Below are positions 4,398-32,897 of a stretch of 35,522 nucleotides of DNA, piece by piece (within the stretch, counting starts at the first letter, position 1; every line of letters begins with the position of its first letter). The position numbers were made by a program, and so were the translations under genes. The DNA is from Verrucomicrobia bacterium ADurb.Bin118. GTDB lineage: Bacteria > Verrucomicrobiota > Verrucomicrobiia > Limisphaerales > MWDV01. The stretch lies in assembly GCA_002070715.1 (NCBI GenBank), contig MWDV01000220.1, forward strand, positions 1-35,522. Direction: 5' to 3'. The notes below the pieces were generated by a model. The model searched no databases. It was given only the letters and a program-made list of their open reading frames with translations, and was not told the DNA's origin.

Positions 4398-4402
4398 GCT
4401 GT

Positions 4403-4692: not shown

Positions 4693-4794
4693 TGGAAACT
4701 GCGATCACCACGGTTTTCTTCCTGCCCAACCTCAAGACACCGAAGTCATTCTGGTGAAGCTGAATCGTGGTCAAGCAGCGTTAAAGATTTCGCA

Positions 4795-6273: not shown

Positions 6274-6417
6274 GGCTTAATGTCTATGCGAAACTGGCGA
6301 GGCTGACAATCCAAGGCGTGCGATCTGCCGGTGACGCTTTTCGTATTTCGGTCGGGCTCGGGTTGCCTGATTTGACGTAACGACGTGGTTGCAGTAATCA
6401 CTGTGCTTGGACGATTT

Positions 6418-7431
6418 ATGAAAACTTGGCGCATGCAATCTCCGGGCGGGTTGGACCGCCTGGTTTTGGAAGAAACAGCGGATCCGGGAGCTCCCGGCAA
6501 GGGGGCCATCCGCGTCGCCATCAAGGCGAATTCCCTCAACTATCACGACCTGCTGGTGGCGCTCGGCACCATTCCGACGGAGAACGGCCGCATCCTGCTT
6601 TCCGACGGGGCCGGCGTGGTGGAGGCCGTGGGCGAAGGCGTGGAAGAATTCAAAGTTGGTGATGCGGTGGTTTCGACGTTTTTTCCCATCTGGCTGGCGG
6701 GGGCGCCCATCCCGGCAGCCGGTGGGTTCCAACACACTCCGGGTGACGGAGTGGACGGCATGGCGGCAAAATATGTGGTGCGCCCCACGACGGCGTTCAC
6801 GCACGCACCCCGCGGCTGGACGCATCCGCAGGCGGCGACGATTCCCACTTCCGCGTTGACAGCGTGGCGGGCCCTGGTGGTGGATGGAGGATTGAAAGCC
6901 GGCGAAACCGTGCTCGTTCAGGGAACGGGCGGGGTTTCGATTGCCGCCCTGCAAATCGCCAAGGGAATGGGCGCCAAGGTGATTGCCACCTCTTCTTCCG
7001 ACGAAAAACTGGAGCGCGCCCGGAAGCTGGGGGCCGACTTTACCATCAACTACCGGCAGGAGCGGGATTGGGGAAAGAAAGCGTTCGCCTTGACCGGCGG
7101 ACTGGGCGTGGATCACGTCATCGAGGTCGGCGGGCCGGCCACCTTGGAGCAATCACTCCGGGCCTTGAAGGTGGGCGGGCATGTCGCCCTGATCGGGGTA
7201 TTGTCGGGCACGGCCGGAGAGCTGCCCATCATGCTGGCGCTGCTCAAGCAGGCCAGGATCGGGGCTTTGATCGTGGGGAGCCGTCGGGATCAGCAGGATT
7301 TTGTTCGCGCCTTGGAAGTGATGGGTGCCGCGCCGGTGGTGGACCAGATTTATCCGGCGGCTGAACTGGTCGAGGCCTTCCGCCATCTGCAAAGCGGGCG
7401 GCATTTTGGGAAAATCTGCATCGAATGGTAG
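6418..7431 (+). CDS. NAD(P)-dependent alcohol dehydrogenase / quinone oxidoreductase (MDR superfamily)
   Basis: A 337-residue cytoplasmic medium-chain dehydrogenase/reductase. The N-terminal GroES-like half shows LVLEETADPGAPGKGAIRV and NSLNYHDLLVALG. The Rossmann half shows GETVLVQGTGGVSIAALQIAK around residues 163-184, followed by the usual SSSDEKLERARKLGAD segment. The C-terminus ends HFGKICIEW, typical of the group. The cysteines of the structural zinc lobe are absent, which places it in the zinc-free or zinc-poor NADPH:quinone oxidoreductase-like branch. The start at 6418 (MKTWRMQ) fits the family better than the in-frame ATG at 6385. It is a single gene; the physiological substrate cannot be read from the sequence. 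Confidence 0.88.
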   Translation: MKTWRMQSPGGLDRLVLEETADPGAPGKGAIRVAIKANSLNYHDLLVALGTIPTENGRILLSDGAGVVEAVGEGVEEFKVGDAVVSTFFPIWLAGAPIPAAGGFQHTPGDGVDGMAAKYVVRPTTAFTHAPRGWTHPQAATIPTSALTAWRALVVDGGLKAGETVLVQGTGGVSIAALQIAKGMGAKVIATSSSDEKLERARKLGADFTINYRQERDWGKKAFALTGGLGVDHVIEVGGPATLEQSLRALKVGGHVALIGVLSGTAGELPIMLALLKQARIGALIVGSRRDQQDFVRALEVMGAAPVVDQIYPAAELVEAFRHLQSGRHFGKICIEW

Positions 7432-11922: not shown

Positions 11923-11940
11923 GTGAGGAGCAGGGCAGAC

Positions 11941-13512
11941 TTAATCGGCGGCCGGCCGGAGATGCGCGCGCGCGTTCTTTTCCAGCCAGGCTTTCCACAA
12001 TTCCAACTCGACGTACAGTTCCAGAAACACGCGCGCCCGGTGTTCATACAAGCCGGCCATCAGCCATTTTTTGTCGGAGCGCTCGTCCAGATACGCTCCC
12101 AAGCGGGCGGCGGAAACAACCACCGGCGCGAATGGATCGTCGGGGAGCGACTCATACCAGCCCACCCGGGTCAGGTCGCGGAAATACCACGGCAGGGGCC
12201 AGTAATCGCTGTCAGGAGCGGCGACTTTCACCAGCATGCGCGGACCGTCCGGATGGATTTGCGCCAGTTGTTCCACTTGTTCCACCAAGCGCAGCAGATC
12301 GGGCGACGTTTGGGCATAGACATACGGGTTGCGCCAATCCGCAGCCCGCACAAAGTTCGCCTGCCACGTCTGCCAGCCCAGATGAATTCCCCCTGCCAGC
12401 AAGACGACGCTCAAGATGATTTTTGCCGGCAACGAACGGATCCATTGAAACAAAGCCACCGTTCCCACGCCCGCCAACACGATCCAACCGTGCCAAAAAC
12501 CGACGAGGCACCAAGGCGTTTTGTAAGCGATCAAACAATAGATCGCGGTGAGCCCGAGGGTGTAAAGGGCCAGGATCCGGATCAACGGCACCCGGGCTTG
12601 GGACACGCCCCGTCGTGTGGCCGCGGCGAGCATGCCCACGCCGCCCAAAAGCAAAATCAAACCCTCGCTCCACCACAGCCCTTTGGGCCGGTGAAAGCAC
12701 AAGAGCCGTTCCAGATAGAAATACCAGGGATGAATGTGCGGGGAATCGCCGGCGGCACGTTGCATCCAGGGAATATAAGTGCGCAGGGAATCAAGGGGGC
12801 CGGAGGGATTGGTGAGAAAAGAGGTGAACAACAGTTGCGATAGGACAATCGCCGCAGCCAGGGCGGCCACCAAAGGCCATCCCCAACACGCCCGCGCCCA
12901 AGCGCGCACGGTTTTCAAACCGCCTTCCCCCCACGCGGTCAAGATCAGCGCCCCGACCAAGGCCACCAGACAGAAAATGAAGGTTTCTTTGGTGGCATAC
13001 ATCAGTCCCACGCCAGCGCCGGCGACGCCCGCCCACAGGATGCGCCGGGTTTGTGTCCATCGCCACGCGCCCACTCCTGCCAGCAGCGTAAAAAACGCCA
13101 GCAACATTTCGTGGATGTAATGCCGGCTGTAATAGACGAGGGCAGGGGAAAGCGCCGTCAACAACGCCGCCACGAGCGCGGCCCGCCGCCCCAAACCGTC
13201 CGCGAGTCCCGCCAATAAAAGAATCAACCCCACGCCGAACAAAGCCGGCGTGAGGCGAAGTGTGGTTTCGCGCAGGGCGCTGAAGCTGCGCGTGCCGCTT
13301 AGCCAGAGCAGCGGCAGATTGGCATAGTAAAGCGTCGGCCCGTGGTATTCGTGGGGATTGTAACGGTAGCGTTTATCGCTCCAGTAATCGCTGAGCCGGA
13401 TGGCGTTGACCGCCTCATCCGAGTGCAACGGCCGCACCGCCAACCGGGTGCTGCGAATTCCCAGTCCCGCGACGGCTACGAGGCAGAGGGCCAACGCCCA
13501 GCCGCGGTTCAT
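11941..13512 (-). CDS. Polytopic membrane glycosyltransferase, Agl23-like (TIGR03663 / GT39-like)
   Basis: A 523-residue integral membrane protein with about ten hydrophobic segments. It has a periplasmic acidic motif typical of lipid-phosphate-sugar transferases of the GT-C fold (LHSDEAVNAIR, D32-E33, after the first membrane helix), then NPHEYHGPTLYYANLPLLWL and YYSRHYIHEMLLAFFTL. These segments are the hallmarks of the family annotated 'flippase activity-associated protein Agl23'. The C-terminal 140 residues are soluble. Its ATG overlaps the stop of the upstream F5/8-type-C gene by 4 bases (ATGA), so the two are translationally coupled. The donor and acceptor are unknown. Confidence 0.85.
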   Translation of the reverse strand: MNRGWALALCLVAVAGLGIRSTRLAVRPLHSDEAVNAIRLSDYWSDKRYRYNPHEYHGPTLYYANLPLLWLSGTRSFSALRETTLRLTPALFGVGLILLLAGLADGLGRRAALVAALLTALSPALVYYSRHYIHEMLLAFFTLLAGVGAWRWTQTRRILWAGVAGAGVGLMYATKETFIFCLVALVGALILTAWGEGGLKTVRAWARACWGWPLVAALAAAIVLSQLLFTSFLTNPSGPLDSLRTYIPWMQRAAGDSPHIHPWYFYLERLLCFHRPKGLWWSEGLILLLGGVGMLAAATRRGVSQARVPLIRILALYTLGLTAIYCLIAYKTPWCLVGFWHGWIVLAGVGTVALFQWIRSLPAKIILSVVLLAGGIHLGWQTWQANFVRAADWRNPYVYAQTSPDLLRLVEQVEQLAQIHPDGPRMLVKVAAPDSDYWPLPWYFRDLTRVGWYESLPDDPFAPVVVSAARLGAYLDERSDKKWLMAGLYEHRARVFLELYVELELWKAWLEKNARAHLRPAAD

Positions 13513-14207: not shown

Positions 14208-14616
14208 TATATTCTCAACGTTTCAAATATCCCTATCTGGATAACGGATATGTCCGCCGACCGAAAGACAATTTTCCGCACCGGCCCGACATCTTTCAGA
14301 CGGTAAAAGCCGCTTCATTATTCGGCGGTCGCCCTTGCCGCGCCTTGGGATCGTGGGTTTTGCCGGGGTTGGTTGAACCGTAATTTTAACGAGGACCGGG
14401 TTAGGCCACAGGAGGTGATACCCAGCCGCCGGAGCAAAGACGCTTGTCATCCGCGCCCCGACGGCGCAAGGTAGGGCCGACCGAACGGGGCAACCATGAT
14501 CACAACGTCGCGTTCCCTTGATGTGGGTGAAATCCGGCGGATTCGCCGCCGGAAGACAATTGCGGGGTCAACAACCCGCCGGTCATGAAGTATTATCAAC
14601 CCGAAGTCGCTTTCGC
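14208..14616. other. Divergent intergenic region and leader of the wsp operon
   Basis: The 409 bases between the discoidin gene and wspA hold no convincing gene. Two hairpins are visible: GCGCC/GGCGC (14453-14467) and an 8-bp TCCGGCGG/CCGCCGGA stem (14533-14553). A strong AGGAGGTGAT string at 14410 is not followed by a usable start. The reading frame of wspA stays open upstream to 14518, but residues before the ATG at 14617 look random. I could not fit the leader to a c-di-GMP riboswitch. Confidence 0.45.
14533..14553 (+). promoter_or_regulatory. Hairpin in wspA leader
   Basis: TCCGGCGG (14533-14540) and CCGCCGGA (14546-14553) form a perfect 8-bp stem with a 5-base loop, about 64 bases before the wspA ATG. 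There is no T-run, so it is more likely a leader structure than a terminator. Confidence 0.35.
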
Positions 14617-16212
14617 ATGAAACACGCAACCCTGAGCCAACGACTCCGCAGCCCGGTCTACCTGATGGTAGGTTTTCTTCTGCTGGGCATGGGCTGTGCG
14701 CTCTGGACCCAGCATCGGTACGCCCAGGCGCAACACCGGGTGGAAGATCTCGCCACCCTGGCACACCGGGTCCATTTTGACCTGTTACAGATGAGCGAAT
14801 CCCTGCGGGGGTTGCTGCTGGATCCGCACAGTGTGACGGAGCAAAAACGGCGCCGCGACGCCGAGGACGATCTCGTGAGAACCCTCAATGACATTGAGAC
14901 GCGGTTTCCCCATCAACCCGACCTGATCAGCCGCGTGCGCACCCTGCGCGAGTATGCGGAGAAACATCTGGCCGTCTTCCAAACCCAGGTGCTGCGGGAG
15001 CTGGAGAATAATCCCGAAAAAGCCTTGGAATGGTACACCCAAAAACGCGCGGAAACCATCCGGTTGCGCGACCGGTATCTCCAGGATTTTGCCGAACGGG
15101 TGGCAGTGGTGAAATCGCAGGAAACGGACGCTGGGCGCAAAGCCACGGTGTTGGGTACGGTGGGGGTGTTGGTCGCCCTTCTGCTCGCCGGGTTGACCGT
15201 GCATATGCATGCCCGCGCCCTGATGCGGCCGTTGGGGGAATTAAGCGCCGCACTGGAGCGCATGCGCCAGGGGGATTTCAGCCAGCGCATCCAATGGCAC
15301 CGCACCGATCAATACGGTGTCATTGGCGAGGGATTGAACCGGCTGGCGGATGACCTCTCGAAGCTCGTCGGCCAAGTGCAACGGTCGGGCATCCAAGTGA
15401 ACACCACCATCACCGAAGTCTCCGCCACCTCCCGCGAGCAACAGAGCACCACCACCGCCATCGCCGCCACCACCGTCGAAATCGGCGCCACTTCCAAGGA
15501 GATTTCGGCCACGTCCCGCGAACTGGTGCAGACCATGAGCGAGGTGGCCGATGTGGCCGGTGAAACCGCCCACCTGGCCAACCGCGGCCAGACCGCCCTT
15601 ACCCGCATGGAGGCCATCATGCGCGAAATCATGGAAGCCTCCGGCGGTGTCACCGCCAAGCTGGCTGTGCTGAACGAGAAAACCACCAACATCAACTCCG
15701 TGGTCACGACCATTACCAAGGTCGCGGATCAAACCAATCTGCTCTCGCTCAACGCGGCCATTGAAGCGGAGAAAGCCGGGGAGTACGGACTGGGGTTTGC
15801 GGTGGTGGCCATGGAAATCCGCCGGCTCGCCGATCAAACCGCAGTGGCCACGTACGACATCGAAAAGATGGTCAAAGAGATGCAATCCGCCGTGGCGGCG
15901 GGGGTGATGGGAATGGACAAATTTTCCGAGGACGTGCGGCGTGGCGCGGCGGAAATCCGTCAGGTCAGCATTCAACTGGCGCAAATCATTCATCAGGTCC
16001 AAACCCTGACGCCGCGGTTCCAAACCGTAAACGAAGGGATGCAAACCCAGGCCGCCGGCGCGCAACAGATCAGCGAAACCCTGGTGCAACTCAGTGAATC
16101 AGCCCATCAAACCGCCGAATCTCTGCGCCAGTCCAATCTGGCCATCGAACAATTGAACGAAGCCGCCCGGACACTGCAAGCCAGTGTGGCGCGGTTTAAG
16201 CTGGAGTCTTAG
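14617..16212 (+). CDS. wspA: Methyl-accepting chemotaxis protein, WspA-like receptor
   Basis: Inner-membrane chemoreceptor of 531 residues that feeds the WspE kinase. TM1 is about residues 14-31, the periplasmic helical domain 32-175, TM2 176-196, HAMP about 197-250, and the rest is a cytoplasmic coiled coil. The hairpin tip carries [20 protein letters not shown] and then [20 protein letters not shown] (about 372-411). The EKAGEYG and LADQTAVAT variants are the WspA form, not that of flagellar receptors. No C-terminal pentapeptide for CheR docking is visible. In Pseudomonas, WspA responds to surface contact or envelope stress. I start it at ATG 14617, just before the first membrane helix. The next gene begins two bases after the stop. 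Confidence 0.92.
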
Positions 16213-16214
16213 GC

Positions 16215-16724
16215 GTGTTGTTCCTCCAGTTCCAACTCGACGACGACCGCTTCGTCCTGGACGCGGGCCGCGTGGCCGAGGTGTTGCCGTTGGTGGAACT
16301 CCGGCGGCTGCCGCAGTCGCCGCCCGAGGTGGCCGGCCTGTGTAATTACCGCGGGCAACCGGTGCCCGTGCTGGATTTGGCGCGATTGCTCCTGGGCCGT
16401 CCGGCGCGGGAAGCGTTGAGCACCCGCATCCTCGTGCTGCATCACCGCGCGGCGGTGGATCAGCCGGCCTTGCTCGGGGTGATCGTCGAGCAGGCCACCG
16501 AAATCTTCCGCCGCGATCCCCGGGAGTTCACCACCGGCGCCGTGCCGGGGTTGGGACCCGTGTTGACCGACAGCCAGGGCATGATCCAATGGATTGATCC
16601 GGAACAGTTGGTGCCCGCCCATCTGCACGCGCGGCTGTTGCCTCCCACCATTCCGAAGACGGCATCCGTTGCGGCGTCGGGCGACGGCGTCACCGTCAAT
16701 CACGCAGGAGATGAAACGGATTGA
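16215..16724 (+). CDS. wspB: CheW-like coupling protein WspB
   Basis: A 169-residue single-domain CheW protein that links receptor and kinase. The start is a GTG two bases after the wspA stop (MLFLQFQLDDDRFVLDAGRV). The family segments VAEVLPLVELRRLPQSPPEVAGLCNYRGQPVPVLDL and GVIVEQATEIFRR match CheW strands. It shares the 'YRG' loop used for receptor and kinase contact. The last 14 bases overlap wspC, indicating coupled translation. The short tail after residue 150 has no recognisable domain. Confidence 0.9.
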   Translation: MLFLQFQLDDDRFVLDAGRVAEVLPLVELRRLPQSPPEVAGLCNYRGQPVPVLDLARLLLGRPAREALSTRILVLHHRAAVDQPALLGVIVEQATEIFRRDPREFTTGAVPGLGPVLTDSQGMIQWIDPEQLVPAHLHARLLPPTIPKTASVAASGDGVTVNHAGDETD

Positions 16725-18054
16725 ACAATGGTTGCGTGATCGCATGGGGATGGACTTTAACACCGTCGGTCCGGCGGTGTTGGAGCGCACGGTGCGGCAG
16801 CGCATGCGGCTGCGAGGGGTAACCTCTCTGCGGGAGTATTATGCGGTGCTGACGGATTCCACCGCGGAAGCGGAGGAGTTGATTGAACTGGCGGTGGTCC
16901 CCGAGACATGGTTTTTCCGCGACCCGGAAGCGTTTCGGGCGCTTACCCAACTGGCCCGCACCGCCCTCGACATAACGACCTTTGGACCGGCCCGCGGACG
17001 CCCAGCGCGCGGGGCTGCCGCTGGAAATGCGAACGGCGAAGGGGAGGTTGCCGGTCGCGCCCGGGGTACGCCGGCGCCGCCGCCGCGTCGGCTGCGGGTG
17101 TTAAGTATTCCCTGTGCCACCGGCGAGGAAGCTTACTCGCTGACGATGGCGCTTTTAGATGGCGGCATTCCCGCAACACAGTTTCAGGTGGATGCTGTGG
17201 ATCTGAGCCAGCGGGCATTGACGACCGCTCAGCGCGCGGTGTATGGGCGCAATTCTTTTCGCGGCAAAGACCTGGCTTTTCGTGATCGCTATTTTGAACG
17301 CGTGAAAGACGGCTTTGCGCTGAACGCCAATGTGCAGGGTTGCGTGTGCTTTTCCCGCGGCAACATCCTCGATCCCGGATTGCTGGCCGGCCAGCCGCCG
17401 TACGACTTTGTGTTCTGCCGCAATTTGCTCATCTATTTTGATGGAGCGGCGCGGACGCGTGCCTTGGAGCGATTGACCGCGCTGGTGAGCGCGACTGGAT
17501 TTTTGTTTGTCGGCGCGGCGGAGCTGCCCTTGGTCGTCAATTATGGCTTTGAATCCGCCCGTCTCCCCATGGCCTTTGCGTGTCGGAAATCAATCCCGCA
17601 TGCTGCTCATTCGCACGATCAAGCTGGCGAGAGTTCCGGCGCGAGCATTTCCTTGCGGGCCCCCGTGCGGAAAGCGGCTTCGCTTCAGAAGGGGAAAAAC
17701 GCCGTCGAAAAACCAGCCGCGCACCCGGCGCACGCCGGCGATCCGGGCCCCGCCGAGCTCCTGGAGACGGCGCGTCGCCTGGCGAATGCCGGTCAGTTGC
17801 GCGAGGCCGCCGAACTGTGCGAACGCCATCTCGAAGTGTATGGGGTTTCCTCGGAGGTTTATTATCTCCTGGGACTGATTGAGGACGCGCAAGGGCGGGC
17901 CGGGGCCGCCCAGTATTATCGCAAGGCCCTCTATCTGGACCCGAATCATGGCGAATGCCTGGTGCAAATGGCGCTGTTATGTCAGCGGCAGGGCGACATG
18001 CGCGGCGCCCGGGTTTTCCAGCGCCGGGCCGAACACGTTCAGCAACGTCCTTGA
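16711..18054 (+). CDS. wspC: CheR-type methyltransferase with C-terminal TPR, WspC
   Basis: SAM-dependent glutamate methyltransferase, expected to methylate WspA and set its signalling level. The 447 residues comprise the CheR N-domain (1-80), the Rossmann methyltransferase domain with SIPCATGEEAYSL at about 132-144 and FVFCRNLLIYF at 233-243, and tetratricopeptide helices at about 350-440 (YYLLGLIEDAQGRAGAAQYYRKAL). The TPR tail is characteristic of WspC. A low-complexity Gly/Ala/Arg insert (about 92-125) separates the subdomains and a Pro/Ala linker precedes the TPRs. ATG 16711 follows GCAGGAG closely and overlaps wspB by 14 bases. Confidence 0.92.
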   Translation: MKRIEQWLRDRMGMDFNTVGPAVLERTVRQRMRLRGVTSLREYYAVLTDSTAEAEELIELAVVPETWFFRDPEAFRALTQLARTALDITTFGPARGRPARGAAAGNANGEGEVAGRARGTPAPPPRRLRVLSIPCATGEEAYSLTMALLDGGIPATQFQVDAVDLSQRALTTAQRAVYGRNSFRGKDLAFRDRYFERVKDGFALNANVQGCVCFSRGNILDPGLLAGQPPYDFVFCRNLLIYFDGAARTRALERLTALVSATGFLFVGAAELPLVVNYGFESARLPMAFACRKSIPHAAHSHDQAGESSGASISLRAPVRKAASLQKGKNAVEKPAAHPAHAGDPGPAELLETARRLANAGQLREAAELCERHLEVYGVSSEVYYLLGLIEDAQGRAGAAQYYRKALYLDPNHGECLVQMALLCQRQGDMRGARVFQRRAEHVQQRP

Positions 18055-18060
18055 TCGCGC

Positions 18061-18774
18061 ATGGCTCCGCCTTCCGCCAAATCCTCCTTGCCGGCGCCAC
18101 CCGCGCCCGCTTCCGCGCTCACGCCGTTGGATGAGTGTTGGCATCGAATCGGCGTTTACGGGGATGGGTCCTGCCCCGAACTGGCGCGGCAGGTGCATTG
18201 TCGAAATTGCCCCACGTTTACCCGGGCGGCGGCCGGATTGCTTAATCGCGACCTGCCCGTCGGGTATCGGCAACAGTGGGCGGCGCACTATGCGCAGGCC
18301 AAACATCGCGCGGCGCCGTGGGATATTTCCACGGTCATCTTCCGGCTCGGCACGGAATGGTTTGCGCTGGACACGGTTTTGTTGCAGGAAATCGCGGAGG
18401 ACCGTCCCATGCACACGCTGCCGCATCGGCGGCGGGGGGTGGTCTTGGGGGTGGTCAACATCCGGGGGGAATTGCTACTGCTGGTTTCGCTGGCGCGGTT
18501 GCTCCAACCTCACGCGCCCGGCGCGGAGGAGTTCACGGCCCGTTGTTGCCCCTGCGTGCTGGTGGTCCACGCACAGGGAAATCGGTTTGCGTTTGCCGTG
18601 GATGAGACGCCGGGGGTGCAGCGCTTTCATCAAACAGACCTGATGCCGCCGCCGGTCACTGCCACCCAGGCCGTCCGCACGTTTACCCGCGGCTTGCTGC
18701 GTTGGAACGGGCATTCCGTGGGCTGGCTCGATGCCGACGCTCTGTTGTTTCACCTCAACCGCAGTCTCGCGTGA
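18061..18774 (+). CDS. wspD: CheW-like coupling protein WspD with N-terminal cysteine motif
   Basis: A 237-residue second CheW of the Wsp array. After a Pro/Ala-rich start, residues 26-50 carry four cysteines (C26, C38, C47, C50; C-x11-C-x8-C-x2-C) in the pattern CWHRIGVYGDGSCP...HCRNCP, followed by the CheW domain (about 85-235). The same N-terminal cysteine block is, as I recall, found in Pseudomonas WspD, which supports orthology over a generic CheW. The cysteines could bind metal or act as a redox site; this is not established. Start ATG 18061 lies six bases after the wspC stop; its stop overlaps the wspE GTG by four bases. Confidence 0.9.
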   Translation: MAPPSAKSSLPAPPAPASALTPLDECWHRIGVYGDGSCPELARQVHCRNCPTFTRAAAGLLNRDLPVGYRQQWAAHYAQAKHRAAPWDISTVIFRLGTEWFALDTVLLQEIAEDRPMHTLPHRRRGVVLGVVNIRGELLLLVSLARLLQPHAPGAEEFTARCCPCVLVVHAQGNRFAFAVDETPGVQRFHQTDLMPPPVTATQAVRTFTRGLLRWNGHSVGWLDADALLFHLNRSLA

Positions 18775-21092
18775 ACGCCCCGGACGATCTCCGCCAGTTG
18801 TCGTTGATGGAATTGTTCCGGGTCGAGTCGGAAAACCAGACGGCCACGCTCACTGCGGGATTACTGGAGCTGGAACGTCAACCGGAATCGTCCGCCCCTT
18901 TGGAAGTCCTCATGCGCGCCGCCCATTCGCTCAAGGGGGCCGCCCGCATTGTCGGACTCAATCCGGCCGTGCGTCTCGCCCATGCGTTGGAGGACTGCTT
19001 CGTTGCCCTTCAACGCGGGCAACTGCGGCTCGACGCCGCCCGGATGGACGCGTTGTTTCGCGGGGTGGATTTATTGCAAAATCTGGGATGCTGTCCGGAT
19101 GCGGAACGCGAATCCTGGCTGCGGGAACAGGCGTCCCATTGGGAGGCATCCGTCAACTCGCTACGCAACCCGATCTCTACAACGAACGTTGCGACAAGCC
19201 CCTCACCCCCGCAGCCGGCAAATCCTACAACGCCCGCCGCCGCCGATGAAATGCCCGTTGTCCTGCCGACGGCGCCGGAGACGACGGCTCCCGCGCAACC
19301 AGCGCCAACCGCGTATCCGACAACTGGCGGGTTGCCGGATTTGCCGGAACGCGTGTTGCGGTTGACGGCGGAGAATCTCAACCGGCTGTTGGGACTGGCC
19401 GGCGAAGCCTTGGTTGAATCCCGTTGGTTGCGCCCCTTCGCGCTCAACATGCAGCGGCTCAAACGCCAGCATGCCGAGATCGAGGCGGATTTGGCGCGCA
19501 CAGCCGGGGCGTTGCGCGAGGTGCCCGGGGCGGAAAACGCGCTGCGCGAGATGCAGGAATTCAACACGCAACTGAAAGAGTGTCGCAGCTTTTTGGACGA
19601 GCGCCTGGCGGAGTTGGATCGCTTCGATCAGCGCAGCGCGCAGTTGTCGCACCGGCTGTATCTGGAAGTCTTGCGCACCCGCATGCGTCCCTTCAGCGAT
19701 GGCGTGCGGCGGTTTCCGCGCATGATCCGGGATCTGGCCCAAAGTTTGGGGAAGGAAGTGCGTTTGGAAATCGTGGGCGAACACACGCAAGTGGACCGGG
19801 ATATTTTGGAGAAGCTGGAGACGCCGCTGGCCCATCTGTTGCGCAACGCGGTGGACCACGGCTGCGAACCGCCGGACGTCCGGCGGCAACAAGGCAAAGC
19901 TCCGGTGGCTACCGTCCGCCTGGAAGCCCGGCATAGCGCCGGTCAGTTGGTGGTGATGGTCACCGACGACGGCGCGGGGGTGGATTTGGAGGCCGTTCGG
20001 GCGGTCATTCTGCATAAACGACTGGCGGCCCCCGACGTGGCCCAGAGCCTCAGTGAAGCGGAATTATTGGAGTTTCTTTTCCTGCCCGGAGTGACCCTGC
20101 GGGAACAGGTCACCGAAGTGTCGGGCCGCGGCGTGGGGTTGGACATCGTGCAAGACCTGGTGAAAAGCGTGCGGGGAAGTCTGCGGGTCAATTCCCAACC
20201 GGGACGGGGCACGCGGTTTCAGTTGCAACTGCCGCTCACGCTTTCGGTGCTGCGGGCGTTGCTGGTGGAAATCAGCGGGGAAGCCTACGCCTTTCCGCTG
20301 GGCCGGCTTAACCGGGTGCTGCACCTGTCCCGGGCGGAAGTGGAATCGTTGGAAGGTCATCCGCATTTTCGGCTGCAAAACGAGACAGTCGGGTTGGTCA
20401 TGGCCCATGAAATTTTGGAGGGGCGTCCACCGCCGACCCTGGGTGACACCCTCGCCGTGGTGGTGTTGGGGAATCGCCAGGAGCAATTCGGTTTGGTGGT
20501 GGACCGTTTTCTCGGGGAACGCGAATTGGTGGTGCAACCGCTGGATCCCCGGCTTGGCAAGGTCAAAGACATCAGCGCGGCGGCGTTGCTGGAAGACGGG
20601 GCGCCGGTGTTGATTGTGGACCCCGACGATGTGGTGCGGTCCGTGGCCAAGGTGTTGGCGGAAGGCGGGGCCGCCGGTTTGGGCGACCGCGCCCCGGCCC
20701 TCGCCGCGCCCCGCCGCAAACGGGTGTTGGTGGTGGACGATTCGCTCACGGTGCGCGAGCTGGAGCGTAAACTGTTGCTCAACCGCGGCTACGACGCGGA
20801 GGTGGCGGTGGATGGGATGGACGGCTGGAACGCCGCCCGCACCGGCCGTTTCGACTTGGTCATCACCGATGTGGACATGCCCCGGCTGGACGGCATCGAA
20901 TTGACGCGGTTGGTGCGGAGCGACCCCCGACTTGAATCCTTGCCCGTGATGATTGTTTCGTATAAAGACCGGGATGAAGACCGGCTGCGCGGTTTGGAAG
21001 CCGGGGCGGATTATTATCTGACCAAAAGCGGTTTTCATGACGAAAGATTGCTCCAAGCGGTCGTGGACCTGATCGGCGAACCAGAAATGTGA
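18771..21092 (+). CDS. wspE: Hybrid CheA histidine kinase with C-terminal receiver, WspE
   Basis: The 773-residue kinase at the core of the array autophosphorylates and passes phosphate to its receivers. Domain order: HPt (about 8-110) with phospho-acceptor H52 in AAHSLKGAARI; a Pro/Thr-rich linker (135-190); dimerisation and HATPase (about 195-490) with N359 and H363 in LLRNAVDHG, DDGAG at 399-403 and GRGVGLD at 452-458; CheW-like domain (about 492-630); receiver (about 650-770) with D700 and K752. The separate P2 domain of flagellar CheA is absent, as in WspE. I use the GTG at 18771, which overlaps wspD by four bases and gives the usual short N-terminus; the upstream in-frame start at 18702 lies inside wspD. 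Confidence 0.93.
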   Translation: MNAPDDLRQLSLMELFRVESENQTATLTAGLLELERQPESSAPLEVLMRAAHSLKGAARIVGLNPAVRLAHALEDCFVALQRGQLRLDAARMDALFRGVDLLQNLGCCPDAERESWLREQASHWEASVNSLRNPISTTNVATSPSPPQPANPTTPAAADEMPVVLPTAPETTAPAQPAPTAYPTTGGLPDLPERVLRLTAENLNRLLGLAGEALVESRWLRPFALNMQRLKRQHAEIEADLARTAGALREVPGAENALREMQEFNTQLKECRSFLDERLAELDRFDQRSAQLSHRLYLEVLRTRMRPFSDGVRRFPRMIRDLAQSLGKEVRLEIVGEHTQVDRDILEKLETPLAHLLRNAVDHGCEPPDVRRQQGKAPVATVRLEARHSAGQLVVMVTDDGAGVDLEAVRAVILHKRLAAPDVAQSLSEAELLEFLFLPGVTLREQVTEVSGRGVGLDIVQDLVKSVRGSLRVNSQPGRGTRFQLQLPLTLSVLRALLVEISGEAYAFPLGRLNRVLHLSRAEVESLEGHPHFRLQNETVGLVMAHEILEGRPPPTLGDTLAVVVLGNRQEQFGLVVDRFLGERELVVQPLDPRLGKVKDISAAALLEDGAPVLIVDPDDVVRSVAKVLAEGGAAGLGDRAPALAAPRRKRVLVVDDSLTVRELERKLLLNRGYDAEVAVDGMDGWNAARTGRFDLVITDVDMPRLDGIELTRLVRSDPRLESLPVMIVSYKDRDEDRLRGLEAGADYYLTKSGFHDERLLQAVVDLIGEPEM

Positions 21093-21218
21093 ACATGATA
21101 AATCGGCAAACAGGGAAGGGGAAAAGCGCGCCGCGCCGCGCCTCTGCTTACGGGTTAGAGTTCGCCATCACCGCGCCTCACGCCGCGTGCCAACGTCAAC
21201 GAAGTGTCCTGTCCAGCC

Positions 21219-22369
21219 ATGCGAATCGCCATCGTCAATGACCTGCCGACGGTGGTTGAAGCCATGCGTCGGGTGGTGCTGTCCACCGGCGAACATGGTG
21301 TGGCTTGGGTTGCGGCTGATGGCGGCGCGGCGGTGGAATTATGCGCGCGGGAACGGCCCGATTTGATCCTGATGGATCTGACCATGCCCCGGATGGGCGG
21401 CGTTGAAGCCATTCGCCGGATAATGGATCGCTCGCCCTGTCCCATCGTCGTCGTGACAGCGGAGGGGAAACAAGATCATGCCCGGATCTTTGAGGCCATG
21501 GGCGCCGGGGCGTTGGATGCCCTCCATCTTCCCGGACTCGTATCGTCCGTCACCGCCGAGACTGCGGACAAGTTGCTGGCCAAGATTGATACAATCCGAC
21601 GGCTCACCGGAATTCGCACCCGGAGCTTGTCTGCCAAGCCCGCCCGCGATTTAACGCCGGGTTCCCTGGCGTCACGTTCGCACCCGGCCAGCGCAACATC
21701 CGGTCTGAATGCAGCCAGCCCAGCGCCGCTGGTGGCCATTGGCGCATCCGCCGGCGGGCCGGCGGCGTTGGCCCGGATTTTGGGTTGCTGGCCGGCGGAT
21801 TTTCCCGCCGCCGTGGTGATTGTGCAGCATGTGGACACGCAATTCGCGCCGGGCTTGGTCCGTTGGTTGAGCAGCCAGACTCCGTTGCCGGTGCGGCTCA
21901 TCCAGTCGGGGGATCGCCCGCAGGCGGGTCTGGTGTTGGTCGCCAACGGCGAGGATCATCTGGTGTTTGATAAGGCCCAGCGTTTGGTTTATTCGCCAAA
22001 CCCCACGGGCGCAGCGCTTCGGCCGTCGGTGGATTTATTTTTTCAAAGCATCGTGAAATACTGGCCAGGCGACGTGATCGGAGTCGTGCTGACCGGGATG
22101 GGCCGCGACGGCGCGCGCGGGCTGAAAATGCTGCGCGAAGCGGGGCAGATAACCGTGGCGCAAGATCAGGCGACCAGTACGGTTTATGGCATGCCCAAAG
22201 CGGCGGCCGAATTGCGGGCCGCCCGCGAGATTTTGCCTTTGGAAAACATTGGACCGCGCCTGGCCATGCTGGTGCAAACCCGCCGGCGCCGTCCCCGTCC
22301 AACACCGCCAACCTCCGCCCGGGTTGGCGCGACCGGCTTGACCCGCAAAAACCCCCAATTCCACAACTG

Positions 22370-22370
<1 letters not shown>
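21219..22370 (+). CDS. wspF: CheB-type methylesterase / response regulator, WspF
   Basis: A 383-residue receptor-demethylating enzyme that counteracts WspC. It has an N-terminal receiver (1-120) with phospho-acceptor D53 in LMDLTMP, a variable linker (about 125-168), and the methylesterase domain. The catalytic triad is complete: S177 in GASAGGP, H204 in VQHVD, D297 in GMGRDGARG. The start [19 protein letters not shown] resembles Pseudomonas WspF. ATG 21219 is preferred over a GTG at 21204. It lies 126 bases after wspE, the only real gap in the operon, and that gap holds no gene. In Pseudomonas, loss of WspF locks the system on. Confidence 0.92.
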
Positions 22371-24991
<2,621 letters not shown>

Positions 24992-25971: not shown

Positions 25972-26042
25972 GGACGGCGCGACGTCGAAGCCCGCGATGC
26001 CTGAACGGCGAAGCGGGGCGGCGGTTCGCCCGAGTGACTTGG

Positions 26043-26729
26043 TTAGCCCCTCCTTTCATCTCTCTTTCGTGTGAACCACACCATCAAGACGCCGCCGCCA
26101 ACCAGTAACGCCCAAGTGGATGGCTCCGGCACGGGGCGCGCAAAAATGGGAGCGTTCGGCACCGAATGGTAAGCCCAGCCATGGAGCACACCGCCAGCTT
26201 CTGCCGCCATCGTCACGTCGAAGTACCCGAAGTGAAATCCATCCTCCAGTTCCAACTGGACGCCGATGAAGCCGCGCGCGCCTGGACTGCCCGGCCACTC
26301 GCTGAGTGTTCCGCTGCTCAGATGCATCGCTATGGTCGCAAAGGCGATTTCTCCTGGCGACACGTAGCCCCCGACCGGATCGCTGGAAAGCCAAGCGCAC
26401 GTTGGATCGAGCGATGAACCGACGAGGAAACCTTCCTCCAAACGGGCGACTGGGCCGCCAATGTTGGGCGGTGGTGAGAGCCTGATAACCACCCGGTTCG
26501 CCCGCTCCGTGCGCAGGCTCACAGAGCCTGGGCTTGCGCCAAAGGTAAAATCGGTAAGGCCGTCGCTGTTGAAGTCAATCGGATAGTAAAAGCCATTGAG
26601 CATATCGCTGCCAATTCCCAGCGGCTCCGGCAGGGCAACCGTAATCGTTCCCTGGGCAACGGCGCCGGCCGCCGCGAGGCCAAGCAGCCCGGCGGCGACC
26701 AATAAAACACTCAGCACTTTCTTGCTCAT
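26043..26729 (-). CDS. PEP-CTERM sorting-domain protein
   Basis: A 228-residue exported protein. Signal peptide at 1-26 (VLSVLLVAAGLLGLAAAGAVAQ). The mature part is beta-rich with a calcium-loop-like IDFNSDGLTDF at 51-61. It ends in a PEP-CTERM signal: VPEPSTWALL at 200-209, a transmembrane segment and RKRDERR at 221-227. Such tails are cut by an exosortase. No exosortase gene is in the window. Its ATG overlaps the stop of the S8 protease gene (ATGA, 26726-26729), so it is the second gene of a two-gene unit. The longer in-frame extension upstream lies inside the protease gene and is not coding. Function of the mature part is unknown. Confidence 0.85.
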   Translation of the reverse strand: MSKKVLSVLLVAAGLLGLAAAGAVAQGTITVALPEPLGIGSDMLNGFYYPIDFNSDGLTDFTFGASPGSVSLRTERANRVVIRLSPPPNIGGPVARLEEGFLVGSSLDPTCAWLSSDPVGGYVSPGEIAFATIAMHLSSGTLSEWPGSPGARGFIGVQLELEDGFHFGYFDVTMAAEAGGVLHGWAYHSVPNAPIFARPVPEPSTWALLVGGGVLMVWFTRKRDERRG

Positions 26730-29314
26730 TGCCCCCTCCGCATACGCCAGAAGCGCACGCCCGCTGGGCTCATCAATGGCACGGTGTTGGTGCGGCTCTC
26801 GGACAGCACGGAGACAGCCGCGGTCCAGTTGGCCAGGGGGGTGGCGACGTTGGTGGAGGCCAGAATCGTGAAATAGGCGCCGGGGTCGGCCACAAACGTC
26901 AACAGAAACTCGTTCGTCGTGGGTGATTTCTCCAGCGCGGTGATGACGGGCACCGGCGGCGTTGCCCCGCCAAGAACCACCGAGACCTTCTGCGTCGTCG
27001 GCGCGGGATTGCCGGGCAGCCCGCCGGAGTGGGTGACCGTAATGCGATACTCGCCCGCCGCTGGTGACGCAATGGAAATGCGCTCCACATTGTTCCGGTT
27101 GTCCACGCCCCGCGTGGCCGCTGCCGAACGGGCTGCCGCCGTCTTGTTCGTCAGGTCGGGATTCAATACCCACGGACGGGAGATCGTCGCCGTGCCCAAA
27201 TGCTCAACGACCACATCGAGGTTGTTGACCAGCATCGGATCGGGCAGGTCCGCCGCCGTGACATTGGTGATGGCCGGCCCCGGCGGGTCACTCCAGGCCG
27301 CCGTCACGGACAGCGGCTCTGTCCCGCTGGATGTTACCACCCACGAAACCGATTGCGTCGGTGCCAACGTGAACTCCTTGATGAGCGAGCCGCGTCCCCA
27401 ATTGAAGTCCTGCTCCACGCGCTCCACCGCGCGCCGGGCGTTGAAGATGCCGTGCCCCAGCCGGTAGTCCGACCCTTCGGCCCCGACCTCATCCACCGTG
27501 TCAATCGCCACGGCCTTGAGCGTGGAATTCAGCCAGGCATCCGCCGCGTTGGTTAGTCCAGGATAGAGTTGCGCCCGCCGCTGCAACACCAACCCCAGCC
27601 CGCCCACCACGCCCGGCGCGGCAAAGCTCGTACCTTCGGCGAACACCTCGTACTGGTTGACCGCTGCCGCCGTGGGCGAGATCAGGCCGAGGATATACCC
27701 GCTACTCACCTCTCCCAATTGATAGCGCAACCACAGATTCGGCGTGCCGACCGCAACCAAGTCAGGCTTCAGTCGCCCGTCATCGGTGGGGCCGGCACCG
27801 CTGAAAGTGGCTGGAACGGCGTTGGCACCGGGTCCGAAACCGAAGATCACAAAGTGATTGCTGACCCAGTAAACATCCTCGCACGCTCCTACCGTCAGCA
27901 CGTTCTTTGCGGTGCCGGGTGCGGCGAGGGAGTCATAACCGCCGTCATCGCCGTCCAGCCAGTCGCGTGTAGTCGTGCTCACCACGAACACGCCGTTGCT
28001 CAACCAATAGTAGGTGCCGGGTGAATTGGTCGGCCCTTCAAGCCGGTCGTTCCCGCACGAATAGACCATTAAATGACGAATCGCCTCTGCATTGTGGAAT
28101 CGGTCAACCTGGACGCAGCCGATGTCAGCGTCGTTCGGAATGGTGTAAAGCCCGAACTTTGGGTCTTCGGAAAAGCTCGCTCCCGGCGGACCCCACCAAA
28201 CCCAAACGTTGGTGACCACCACACCGACTTGGTTGGTGAGGGTCCGGTGACGCCGCCAGCCGTTGGCCAGTCCCCACGAATGGTTGGCCAGAAACACCGG
28301 CGCATTGGTCGCATCCCCCGCTGCAGCCGATTCCCGCTCGCTCTTGAAATTTGCCGTGTCGTAGGCAAAGACATTGGCCTGATACGCCACGCCGCGTGCC
28401 TGGTAGAACTGTCCGAAGATACTGCGGACTCCACCGGCGGCCATCGTGCCGGCCACGGCAGTCGCATGGCCGCTGGTGTCCAGCATCGCGTTGTCCCGTT
28501 GCCGGACCCGCGTGCCAAACTCAATGTGGTTGGTCCGCACCCCGCCGTCTGTCTCCCACAATGCGAGCGTGACGTTTGTGCCGGTCAGGTTGCGCCCCGT
28601 ATTACTCTCCGAGTAGGGCCACGCGCCCAGCGGCCACAATTCGTCGGCACTGATGCTGGCCGCCGCCGCCGTGTTGTGACTGCCGACGTAGGCCGGCCCG
28701 CCGGCAATCTCGTCCACGAGAATCAGCTTTCGCCCATCAGATTCCTGAATCTCGCGTGGCGTGCCAAGGCGTTTGGACAACTCGTCCAACGCGCGCTCCT
28801 TGGCTGGTTGCTCGGCAGCCGAGCGGGTGGCCTGCTCGCGCAAGGCCGCGAATTCCGCTTCGCCTTCCTGCCGCTTCTCCTCGCTCGCCGCCCGGCCGGG
28901 CGGAATCAGCGCCCGCGTCTGCGGCGCAAGCGCCACCTTTTTCTGTTGCCACGCTTCCTCGGCACGGCGTCTGGCGTCTTCTGCCGCCTGATGTGCCGCC
29001 GCCGCCAGTACGGGGTCGGCGGCGATGGCCTTGGCCAGCGCGGCAGCCTTCGCGTGCCGCTTCCGGGCGACGGCCTGCTCCGGTGTGTCGGGCACGCCGG
29101 TGTCATCCGCCAGGAACTTGCCCGGCGCAAACTCAACCGCTGGCAATTCGGGATGCGGGTTGAAGGGCCACGGCGGCTTCCACTCGTAATCCTTCGCTGA
29201 ATAGTAACTGCCCAGTTTGGGCGGTTCTTGGAGTTGGGCGCGACCGACGCTGGCAAGGGCAAGCGCCGTAATTACGATGGCGATTCCTTTCGTTGCGCCG
29301 ATTCTTGTTTTCAT
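26726..29314 (-). CDS. Secreted subtilisin-like serine protease (S8)
   Basis: An 862-residue exported protease. Signal peptide 1-26. Residues 75-190 form an Ala/Glu/Arg-rich helical stretch that may be a propeptide or coiled coil. The catalytic domain (about 220-630) has D256 in LWETDGG, H283 in DTSGHATAVAGT, oxyanion N422 in YSCGND and S563 in EGTSFAAPG. An insert of more than 100 residues follows the histidine strand. Residues 640-785 resemble the P-domain/jelly-roll that follows kexin-like and bacterial S8 domains. The end (YFTILASTNVATPLANW, then RFWRMRR) is the beta-domain commonly found at the end of secreted verrucomicrobial proteins. Its promoter is probably in the 29.4-kb module. It is translationally coupled to the PEP-CTERM gene. 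Confidence 0.93.
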   Translation of the reverse strand: MKTRIGATKGIAIVITALALASVGRAQLQEPPKLGSYYSAKDYEWKPPWPFNPHPELPAVEFAPGKFLADDTGVPDTPEQAVARKRHAKAAALAKAIAADPVLAAAAHQAAEDARRRAEEAWQQKKVALAPQTRALIPPGRAASEEKRQEGEAEFAALREQATRSAAEQPAKERALDELSKRLGTPREIQESDGRKLILVDEIAGGPAYVGSHNTAAAASISADELWPLGAWPYSESNTGRNLTGTNVTLALWETDGGVRTNHIEFGTRVRQRDNAMLDTSGHATAVAGTMAAGGVRSIFGQFYQARGVAYQANVFAYDTANFKSERESAAAGDATNAPVFLANHSWGLANGWRRHRTLTNQVGVVVTNVWVWWGPPGASFSEDPKFGLYTIPNDADIGCVQVDRFHNAEAIRHLMVYSCGNDRLEGPTNSPGTYYWLSNGVFVVSTTTRDWLDGDDGGYDSLAAPGTAKNVLTVGACEDVYWVSNHFVIFGFGPGANAVPATFSGAGPTDDGRLKPDLVAVGTPNLWLRYQLGEVSSGYILGLISPTAAAVNQYEVFAEGTSFAAPGVVGGLGLVLQRRAQLYPGLTNAADAWLNSTLKAVAIDTVDEVGAEGSDYRLGHGIFNARRAVERVEQDFNWGRGSLIKEFTLAPTQSVSWVVTSSGTEPLSVTAAWSDPPGPAITNVTAADLPDPMLVNNLDVVVEHLGTATISRPWVLNPDLTNKTAAARSAAATRGVDNRNNVERISIASPAAGEYRITVTHSGGLPGNPAPTTQKVSVVLGGATPPVPVITALEKSPTTNEFLLTFVADPGAYFTILASTNVATPLANWTAAVSVLSESRTNTVPLMSPAGVRFWRMRRGQ

Positions 29315-29380
29315 GGTGGCGGTTCAGTTTGCTGTGCGTGTTCGCTTTGCCCACGACGTGCGCGAACAGTTAATTAAACG

Positions 29381-29501
29381 ACAGTCGCATTGGGTTATTT
29401 GTCGCCATGTTACGGTGGCCGAAGCATAATGATTTTACAACGGGTTGTCACGCCGTGATTTCGCCGGATCAATCGCAATTTCTGCCGCCTGGCCAGGGGC
29501 C
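29381..29501 (-). repeat. Dispersed promoter-bearing module, copy 1
   Basis: About 110 bases align without gaps with 32778-32897 at roughly three quarters of positions, by hand count. The copy lies upstream of the S8 protease operon in the same orientation to its gene as copy 2. The best conserved parts are GAAGCAT-A-TGATT, the CCGTGATTTCG block and TTTCTGCCGC. Confidence 0.65.
29423..29451 (-). promoter_or_regulatory. Candidate sigma-70 promoter of S8/PEP-CTERM operon
   Basis: On the minus strand GTGACA (29451-29446) and TATGCT (29428-29423) are spaced by 17 bases. The same -35/-10 spacing recurs in the second copy of the module (TTGACA-N17-CATGCT). It leaves a leader of about 100 bases before the protease ATG. 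Confidence 0.45.
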
Positions 29502-31171: not shown

Positions 31172-31711
31172 CTATCGTCGGTGCTTTGGGTGGATCCGGA
31201 TCAGAAAGATTTCCAAACGAATGACTGATTCTCGATCAATGCCGCAGGCTTGGTGCATGGCATGAGCAAAGAGATGCGGGGGGATGGCAACGTGCCGGTA
31301 TCCCATCGTCCGCATCCCCAGAATCGCGTAATAAATTCCCGGCAGGACATCCGCTTGCCGGGCCAACAACCAGAGTCGCTGGTAGCTGACGTTTGACCGG
31401 TGCATCTTCGGCGCCTGCCACGCGATCACCGGTTTCCCCTCGAGGGTCGTCACGTAGGGGATGGGATCCTGTAGGATTGTCTCGAACTCCAACGGATCCC
31501 CTTTATTGCGATAAAACTTGAGAACCGCGTCAACGCGATCGGAGTCTTGGACCGGATCGCCGTACCCGACGATTTCATTCAACAACTTGATTCCGGCCCG
31601 AAGCTTCCGGGGCACTTTCTCTGAACGCTCCTCCGTGCGCCTCTGCGCGCCGAAGGCCTCGCGAGAAAAAACCCTGGCGAAAAGCTCACGAACCCGCTTG
31701 GCAATCCTCAT
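31172..31711 (-). CDS. Divergent FKBP-type peptidyl-prolyl isomerase-like protein
   Basis: A 179-residue cytoplasmic protein without a signal peptide. After a basic helical N-terminus (1-38), residues 40-175 follow the FKBP fold: GIKLLNEIVGYGDPV (first strand and loop), LKFYRN, then GIYYAILGMRTMGYRHVAIPPHLFAH (126-150). That stretch matches the family's G-x-GMRxGGxRxxxIPPxLAYG motif with changes at key glycines. It ends with SVIRLEIFLIRI, the usual last strand. The aromatic pocket is only partly recognisable (the GWDEG segment is missing), so isomerase activity is doubtful. Domain assignment is by motif reading only. It stands alone on the minus strand, downstream of the cassette-like genes. 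Confidence 0.65.
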   Translation of the reverse strand: MRIAKRVRELFARVFSREAFGAQRRTEERSEKVPRKLRAGIKLLNEIVGYGDPVQDSDRVDAVLKFYRNKGDPLEFETILQDPIPYVTTLEGKPVIAWQAPKMHRSNVSYQRLWLLARQADVLPGIYYAILGMRTMGYRHVAIPPHLFAHAMHQACGIDRESVIRLEIFLIRIHPKHRR

Positions 31712-31748: not shown

Positions 31749-31815
31749 GGAGCGCAGAATTTATTCCGCGTGTTTCAAGGTCAGCGGGCCACTCGCGGAA
31801 TAAATTCCGCGCTCC
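31749..31815. repeat. Imperfect palindromic intergenic element
   Basis: Arms 31749-31770 and 31794-31815 are reverse complements at 21 of 22 positions, around a 23-base loop. Each arm is itself nearly palindromic around AATTTATT (GGAATAAATTCC-like). It lies 38 bases upstream of the FKBP-like gene start, on the minus-strand side. I recall similar repeats from verrucomicrobial intergenic DNA but could not check this. Confidence 0.65.
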
Positions 31816-31895
31816 GGTAAAATCTTTGCAGAATGCGATGATGTTGGGAGATAGCACTGCAGGGTCAGGCGGCGTGGCTTGTGAGGCTAGATAAA

Positions 31896-32139
31896 TCATC
31901 TCGGAGTGGCCAGACGCTCCAAGCACGCCGCGGCGCCCAAGCCGTCGTCCATCGCACCGCAGATGATGTCGGTGATGTCATCGTCAGAGCCGGCAACTCG
32001 CGTGTCGCGGCGAATGGCTGCGAGGAGCCGGCTCATCGCCGATCCCGAAGTCACCGTCCAGCCATGCGCGCACGGCGGCCATGGGCGTGAGAGCGCGCAA
32101 GCGCTCAAACCGCTCTTTGTTCTGTGGTTGAAACGTCAT
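31896..32139 (-). pseudogene. Small gene with apparent frameshift
   Basis: From ATG 32139 the first frame reads MTFQPQNKERFERLRALTPM and on to LDGDFGIGDE (36 residues), a plausible soluble protein, then turns into low-quality sequence and stops. A +1 shift near 32030-32040 continues with SRLLAAIRRDTRVAGSDDD and then ITDIICGAMDDGLGAAACLERLATPR, ending at TGA 31898-31896. Both halves read like one 80-residue helical protein broken by a single indel. A sequencing error would look the same. It begins 23 bases after the GTTAGCA end of the attC-like site, as a downstream cassette gene would. I do not recognise the family. Confidence 0.45.
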
Positions 32140-32161
32140 GTGGGGTGGGAGGTGCGGACGC

Positions 32162-32269
32162 TGCTAACGGCCAAAAGCTGAGCCACGCGACCTGCGACTT
32201 CCGAACGGCGGAAGTCCGCAGCGCCAAACCGAAAGCGCCCAGGCGGTTTGCTCCAGCGTTTTGTTAGAT
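32162..32269 (-). other. attC-like site (integron cassette recombination site)
   Basis: Read on the minus strand it has the order of an attC site. R'' is ATCTAAC (RYYYAAC; 32269-32263), then a 5-base spacer and L'' GCTGGAGC (32257-32250). A 66-base centre with two imperfect hairpins follows. L' is GCTCAGC (32183-32177), then an 8-base spacer and R' GTTAGCA (32168-32162). L'' and L' pair fully except for one extra G in L'', the extrahelical base typical of attC. The stop codon of the upstream gene lies in R''. R' departs from GTTRRRY at its last two bases and the spacers are unequal, so it may be degenerate. Confidence 0.45.
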
Positions 32270-32749
32270 CTCAATCTCCCCATGCGGTGTCACTTTTGGC
32301 AGATACGGAATGCGGAAATCGACAAACCGCTCCTTGGCGTCCTTTGCTTTCTCCCGAGTATAAATACGTAGGAAAAACTGTGTCGTGCCTTCAGGTGCTG
32401 ACCAAAACTCCCAAATCATCGGAATGCCACTACGACCGTCATCTGGCACCCCAACTTGGCAGCCAAACTTGGGGTCAATCTCTGTAGATTCCGCCGAAGT
32501 CCGAATGGAAGCCCTCACGGCATAGCGCTCATTGGGGTTGCCTCCCAACCAACGACATCGGACACGAAGAAATCGGTTGGTTCCGGTAGGATACACATAA
32601 ACATCCTCAACCCGCATGCTGATGCCATCAGCTATCGTTTTGGTCTGGGTGATACGCCAAGACCGGATCGGATTGGCCTTTGGCAGCAACACCACCGCCA
32701 GCACAGCCATCGCGACGCTGATCCATATGAGTGATTCACGACGACGCAT
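32264..32749 (-). CDS. Hypothetical membrane-anchored protein in cassette-like context
   Basis: A 161-residue protein with one N-terminal hydrophobic segment (LIWISVAMAVLAVVLLP, residues 7-23), probably an uncleaved anchor, and an extracytoplasmic beta-rich domain (ISMRVEDVYVYPTGTNRFLRVRCRWLG, FRIPYLPKVTPHGEIEI). I do not recognise the family. GTTAGGT, a perfect GTTRRRY core, lies 8 bases before the ATG (32764-32758), and the TAA stop is inside the attC-like site. Gene plus site span about 600 bases, a typical cassette length. The candidate promoter module copy 2 lies just upstream. Confidence 0.7.
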   Translation of the reverse strand: MRRRESLIWISVAMAVLAVVLLPKANPIRSWRITQTKTIADGISMRVEDVYVYPTGTNRFLRVRCRWLGGNPNERYAVRASIRTSAESTEIDPKFGCQVGVPDDGRSGIPMIWEFWSAPEGTTQFFLRIYTREKAKDAKERFVDFRIPYLPKVTPHGEIEI

Positions 32750-32777
32750 AATTTGAGACCTAACGGTTAAGTGAGTG

Positions 32778-32897
32778 ACCATTGCATTGGATTGTTTGCC
32801 GCCATTTCACGGTGCTTGAAGCATGATGATTCCATAACCAATTGTCAAGCCGTGATTTCGTCGAATCAGCCACTGTTTCTGCCGCTAGCAGTGGTCC
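32778..32897 (-). repeat. Dispersed promoter-bearing module, copy 2
   Basis: This is the second copy of the element at 29381-29501, in the same orientation relative to the gene it precedes. It also contains an imperfect stem TCACGG-TG-CTTGA / TCAAG-CCGTGA and a CCACTG/CAGTGG hairpin that copy 1 lacks. It lies between the cassette-like gene and the divergent aldo/keto reductase gene. Confidence 0.65.
32820..32848 (-). promoter_or_regulatory. Candidate sigma-70 promoter upstream of cassette-like gene
   Basis: On the minus strand TTGACA (32848-32843) matches the -35 consensus. CATGCT (32825-32820) lies 17 bases downstream as a poorer -10. The predicted leader to the ATG at 32749 is about 65-70 bases and includes the GTTAGGT core site, an arrangement like a promoter reading into an integron cassette. 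Confidence 0.5.

Follow-up and report, generated by a model that had tools for sequence, protein, structure and literature searches.

Two cassette arrays headed by promoter-bearing attI sites on an integrase-free contig of a Verrucomicrobia genome, probable remnants of former integrons

Organization of the locus

The window analyzed here is the whole 35,522-nt contig C220 of Verrucomicrobia bacterium ADurb.Bin118, a draft genome of 3.78 Mb in 464 contigs with a completeness of 80.65%. The glutamine synthetase is nearest to that of uncultured Verrucomicrobia. Between about 26.0 and 32.9 kb, the contig carries two gene cassette arrays, each headed by its own attI site (attI A and attI B). No integrase is encoded on the 35.5-kb contig, so that a complete integron with intI in cis is absent from it. 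An integron integrase was present in 93 of 293 sampled genomes of the order. Judged from translations only, positions 14518 to 24991 hold a chemotaxis-like cluster with receptor-, CheW-, CheR-, CheA-, CheB-, and hybrid-kinase-like open reading frames (ORFs). An inverted repeat, GGAGCGC(A/G)GAATTTATTCCGCG, lies at 31749 to 31815 with a partial second copy nearby (31324 to 31339) and resembles a dispersed intergenic palindromic repeat.

The attC site and the first cassette

The attC site of cassette 1 occupies positions 32162 to 32269 on the minus strand. It consists of R'' ATCTAAC (32269 to 32263), the spacer AAAAC, L'' GCT[G]GAGC with a one-base bulge, a variable part, L' GCTCAGC, the spacer TTTTGGCC, and R' GTTAGCA (32168 to 32162). 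R'' and R' are complementary over five pairs (CTAAC/GTTAG), as are L'' and L' around the extrahelical base in L'', while R' deviates from a perfect RRRY. The recombinogenic bottom strand, here the plus strand of the window, takes the canonical attC fold with paired R and L boxes and an open spacer (z = -3.14; none of 200 shuffled sequences was equally stable), compared with a z of only -1.87 for the top strand.

For covariance model R1, 33 attC sites were taken from loci with an integron integrase in other genomes of the order and one from contig C445 of the present genome, with the window site left out; covariation was strong in the R and L helices of the collected sites. The window site scored 41.4 bits (E = 1.5e-9 in the window and 9.1e-8 in the whole genome), and the second-best match in the window, 12.7 bits (E = 0.26, default filters), is the half attC described below. 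Across the genome, R1 detected 24 attC sites on 12 contigs at E < 0.01. Furthermore, an attC from an integrase locus of genome G055 (L123:1-111) has in common with the window site L'' GCTGGAGC, the stretch CGTGGCTCAGCTTTT, and the L' sequence. A search of Rfam at the gathering threshold returned no match, BLAST of the site against its own genome found no close copy, and matches to a simple R''/L'' pattern were not above the reversed control. On its R1 score and fold, the element at 32162 to 32269 (minus strand) is a genuine attC. Common attC starts (AACCATGCGCTGCAGCGAACC, e.g., L017 9498 to 9520) translate as NHALQRTA when an ORF reads through them, and such read-through is the likely origin of this C-terminal motif in predicted proteins.

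Cassette 1 spans 596 nt (32168 to 32763, minus strand) between two G^TT crossover points, placed by the core positions in the sequence. A perfect GTTRRRY core, GTTAGGT (32764 to 32758, minus strand), precedes the ATG at 32752 by 8 bases, and the TAA stop codon of the gene (32267 to 32752, minus strand) lies inside R'' ATCTAAC. The encoded protein of 161 amino acids has an N-terminal helix, either a membrane anchor or a signal, and a predicted eight-strand beta-sandwich (AlphaFold2 model, mean pLDDT 74.7). It matched no Pfam family, and as its fold gave only weak sandwich matches in the PDB, no function is claimed for it. A single distant homologue was found among 97 relatives searched, in genome G079, where the stretch examined around it showed no integron sign; the species-genome collection held no relative. 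Overall, the small gene with its two boundaries reads as a genuine integron gene cassette. The original prediction, made from the letters of the window, had proposed this core, the stop codon inside R'', and a 108-base attC-like structure with a bulged L'' and paired R and L boxes. All of these are exact, and the fold and covariance model that it had named as checks (see the values above) agree with it.

A second cassette in three contexts

Directly behind the attC lies cassette 2 (31875 to 32167, minus strand), whose gene is frameshifted by a 2-nt deletion. The ORF remnant extends from about 31896 to 32139, following an ATG 23 nt downstream of the site, where a next small gene had been predicted. 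The segment from 31875 to 32186 is 89.5% identical to positions 7011 to 7323 of contig C427, which also lie directly behind an attC, and 88.5% identical to positions 3182 to 3467 of contig C402, where the cassette sits between two attC sites. On both of these contigs the ORF is intact. An attC belonging to the window copy itself was not recognizable. The upstream neighbors differ in all three contexts, and real similarity begins at the GTT core, as is expected from site-specific recombination. The window array is thus read as more than a single cassette, with a second one joined at the GTT core.

The S8/PEP-CTERM module behind attI A

The other array consists of attI A and the subtilase/PEP-CTERM module of about 3.3 kb that it heads (26.0 to 29.5 kb). 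The S8 peptidase (subtilase) gene (26726 to 29314, minus strand; PF00082, E = 2.2e-31) has paralogues on contigs C50 (two), C427, C454, and C397. The PEP-CTERM protein gene (26043 to 27173, minus strand) scored 21.1 bits against PF07589, for which the cutoff is 20.7, and has homologous ends on other contigs. The module ends in a half attC (25977 to 26048, minus strand) that keeps the 5' half and has lost L' and R'; this region is 82 to 83% identical to the PEP-CTERM end and attC start on C50 and C427. The module is classed as an unusually large cassette type.

At least five occurrences of the two-gene module, about 3.3 to 3.4 kb long and ending in a 138-nt attC family, were seen: window 25977 to 29366, L160 (C50) 37 to 6913, L017 (C454) 9613 to 12892, L158 (C427), and L157 (C397). 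In the open-access literature searched, no paper joined integron, PEP-CTERM, and gene cassette.

A family of attI sites with a promoter

The element upstream of cassette 1, attI B with its promoter (32765 to 32864, minus strand), ends exactly at the GTTAGGT core. Its predicted sigma70-type promoter comprises a -35 box TTGACA (32842 to 32847), a 17-nt spacer, and a -10 box CATGCT (32819 to 32824), followed by attI proper at about 32765 to 32812. The 124 nt before the cassette-1 core recur at 29365 to 29488 with 75% identity (E = 1.5e-17). This second copy, attI A (29368 to 29466, minus strand), has the promoter GTGACA-17-TATGCT and the core GTTCGC (29367 to 29362). A similarity search of the genome found further copies on C402, C199, C187, C437, and C148. 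Sequence model R2, made from these seven copies, all of this genome, scores attI B at 89.3 bits and attI A at 87.1 bits (both training members) and adds copies on C294, C458, and C97 and, at the end of C437, an incomplete copy, giving 11 in the genome.

The ten full copies align over 100 nt without indels, and an ORF starts within about 50 nt downstream of each. Pairwise identity among them averages 0.88 for the -35 box TTGACA and 0.46 for the 17-nt spacer; the corresponding values are 0.75 to 0.78 in the 48-nt attI, 0.89 at the core, and 0.26 to 0.32 inside the cassettes. The copies resemble each other up to G^TT, past which they carry different cassettes.

R2 also matched 14 other genomes of the order. 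In three of them (G112; G148, contig C79; G288, contig C230) the match adjoins a full, divergently oriented intI, the position that an attI takes. For this reason the 100-nt element upstream of cassette 1 is identified as attI plus the cassette promoter Pc, an assignment made from sequence comparison. We infer that the strongly conserved TCA[T/C] before TTGACA is the intI start codon on the opposite strand. The IntI proteins of G112, G148, and G288 form one clade (support 100/100), distinct from the IntI proteins of the genome studied here. In the model search, G227 had 7 attI copies, G148 had 6, G192 and G046 had 4 each, and G044, G288, and G100 had 3 each. R2 found no match at about 40 intI loci in other genomes, so that the order has several attI types, of which this is one. 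Model R3 gave one weak candidate beside intI in G125, which a whole-genome search did not confirm.

Loss of intI and integrases elsewhere in the genome

None of the 11 attI copies adjoins an intact intI. For nine of them, the upstream sequence is free of an intact intI over at least about 2.4 kb; the copies on C199 and at C437:6746 are close to the ends of their contigs, and an adjacent intI might have fallen outside the assembled sequence. Truncated 5' ends of cognate-clade intI were found upstream of attI on C187 (E = 4e-26), C402 (2e-12), C294 (5e-9), and C199 (7e-7). In the window, a possible stub of the intI 5' end (32771 to 32881, plus strand) overlaps attI B and aligns in tblastn with residues 1 to 37 of the G148 IntI frame (E = 2e-7), although it reaches only about 10 codons past the start and is weak when taken alone; the stub at attI A is weaker (E = 1e-4).

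In other genomes, this attI occurs next to intI genes that are full, partial, or reduced to a stub. Intermediate states of loss occur in G148 (C14), G044, G196, G129, and G100. The intI fragment on G148:C14, 167 amino acids long, is 92% identical to the intact copy on C79, and the two attI copies score identically. Comparison of G148:C14:103138 (L186, L209) with G148:C79 (L200, L215) suggests an apparently recent duplication of the integron head.

The predicted lack of an integrase nearby is right for contig C220. The wider genome, where a search for an integrase and for more sites had been proposed, yields both, as the 24 attC sites are joined by an intact IntI on C454 (TIGR02249, 388.6 bits) that has cassettes on its other side. 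A broken intI lies on C445, with an upstream region nearly identical to that of C454 and a different first cassette. The C454 IntI falls outside the clade that owns the R2-type attI, and the attI models did not match its own attI. The attI common to C454 and C445 (L017, L018) differs from the R2 type and has the direct repeat AACTTTGTC. The C454 ORF (L017 6988 to 8466) encodes 492 amino acids with two N-terminal SAM-like domains (PF02899, PF13495) and is possibly an integrase variant with an extra N-terminal domain; many IntI proteins of the order have open frames of 430 to 570 amino acids. The cognate intI is absent from the assembly and, at 80.65% completeness, may simply be missing from it.

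Origin of the arrays and alternative explanations

In integrons, the integrase recombines attC, in the form of its folded bottom strand, with attI, which is double-stranded; the exchange takes place at G^TT, and the first cassette is expressed from Pc.

Taken together, the segment between about 26.0 and 32.9 kb very probably represents two former integrons from which intI was deleted while the Pc-attI heads and their cassettes were kept. Cassettes would have been inserted at G^TT by an IntI of the attI-owning clade, binding attI in double-stranded form and attC as a folded bottom strand. The first cassette would have been transcribed from Pc, which overlaps the start of the deleted intI. The heads may have multiplied through duplication within the genome or repeated acquisition, followed by stepwise loss of intI from the multiplied heads with retention of promoter and attI. 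At present, the main role of the platforms would be the expression of a first cassette that stays in place. For cassettes to be excised or captured, an integrase would have to act in trans, be it the resident C454 IntI, which is of a different clade, or a cognate one that was not assembled. Activity of the C454 IntI in trans is only a possibility, given this difference in clade and an attI of its own that the models leave unmatched.

The original prediction had described a lone cassette or an integrase-less cluster of attC sites. The cassette, its attC, and the lack of an integrase on the contig stand, but the description was incomplete. The GTT core ends a full attI with promoter, and a second cassette, found on two further contigs, follows the attC. 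Moreover, the array is one of about 11 attI arrays in the genome that have no intact intI, and the second attI-headed module at 26.0 to 29.5 kb was not part of the prediction.

The resident C454 integrase could still be filling and emptying the orphan attI platforms in trans, as part of a live system. Its IntI is intact, cassettes of the S8/PEP-CTERM family follow orphan attI sites on C220 and C294 and are also part of the C454 array, and promoter and attI are conserved in register. Against this, the C454 IntI is not of the attI-owning clade, its attI is unmatched by the models, and several arrays hold decayed cassettes and a half attC, and we consider ongoing activity of this kind doubtful. 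Off-target insertion, in which an IntI made elsewhere put a cassette into an arbitrary attG-type site that was never an integron, is a known process (Loot et al. 2024, as cited in PMC12444791), and the genome does have an IntI on another contig. The target here is, however, a conserved, promoter-bearing element of 100 nt that recurs 11 times in register and stands beside a full intI in relatives, which makes such an origin very improbable. The sequence upstream of the cassette is an attI, so the site is not one unrelated to attI or attC.

Drafts of 464 contigs invite the suspicion that a single integron was broken across contigs and copied by misassembly or binning, since repeats break assemblies and integrase-less arrays are overestimated in drafts (PMC9024848). 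Yet the attI copies differ from one another (about 75 to 78% identity), as do their flanks and cassettes, and attI A and attI B both lie in the interior of a single contig, together with chromosomal genes. In G148 (80 contigs, 95% completeness), six attI copies occur, three of them on one contig. We consider an artifact very unlikely. GC-rich hairpins are common here and the top strand folds only moderately better than shuffled sequences, as might suit a terminator or repeat with GTT cores by chance. The R1 scores in the window and the whole genome effectively refute this reading, the site having been left out of the model and still reaching E = 9.1e-8 genome-wide. The L'' and L' sequence in common with an integrase-locus attC of another genome (L123:1-111) and the cassette junctions also speak against it, and its chance is next to nil.

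The reading as former integrons suggests that platforms holding cassettes can outlast the enzyme that built them and can increase in number without it. A distributed integron, with dispersed attI-Pc platforms that lack intI, carry and express cassettes of their own, and still exchange them through an integrase in trans, is a more tentative extension that we regard as rather unlikely; its scope would be about 11 platforms here and, in several further members of the order, three to seven per genome. If true, it would break with the standard layout, in which a single attI lies in cis to its integrase. The attI family is defined here by its place beside intI, exact cassette junctions, and conservation, and intermediate states of intI loss are documented. 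This indicates that some arrays without an integrase are real integron platforms and not the result of cassettes inserted at random. Two questions can now be tested, namely whether an integrase acting in trans serves the orphan attI sites and whether selection for cassette expression maintains promoter and attI.

Comparison with known systems

AttC sites, cassettes, and integrase-less arrays are already known. For multi-copy orphan attI platforms, no description was found in the open-access literature searched, and this absence is not proof of novelty. Integrons typically have one attI, close to the integrase; attI has been called poorly described outside class 1, and the standard tool does not search for it (PMC9024848). 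The window resembles sedentary chromosomal integrons in its Pc, attI, G^TT junctions, and attC cassettes, and in the overlap of the intI start with Pc as reconstructed from relatives. It differs from them in lacking intI in cis and in the number of heads, 11 per genome in place of one attI near an integrase.

Clusters of attC sites lacking an integron integrase (CALINs) likewise combine attC-bearing cassettes with the absence of an integrase on the contig. Proposed origins of CALINs are intI loss, off-target insertion, and rearrangement (PMC8618304), the first of which is the one favored here. By default, IntegronFinder 2 calls a CALIN from at least two attC sites (PMC9024848); the window, with one full attC and a half attC 6.1 kb away, falls below this number and, by keeping attI and Pc, lies outside the CALIN definition. 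The attG sites of Loot et al. 2024 are, as cited in PMC12444791, scattered sequences used in recombination that belong to neither the attC nor the attI type. They share with the arrays described here the presence of cassettes at chromosomal loci without intI, but, as far as that citation describes them, they are not a 100-nt attI/promoter family. Delta-attI-type cassettes of class 1 and class 2 integrons (PMC12901181) also have an attI away from its integrase. In those cassettes, the place of attC behind the ORF is taken by a partial attI, whereas here a full attI with its promoter lies upstream and attC is present.
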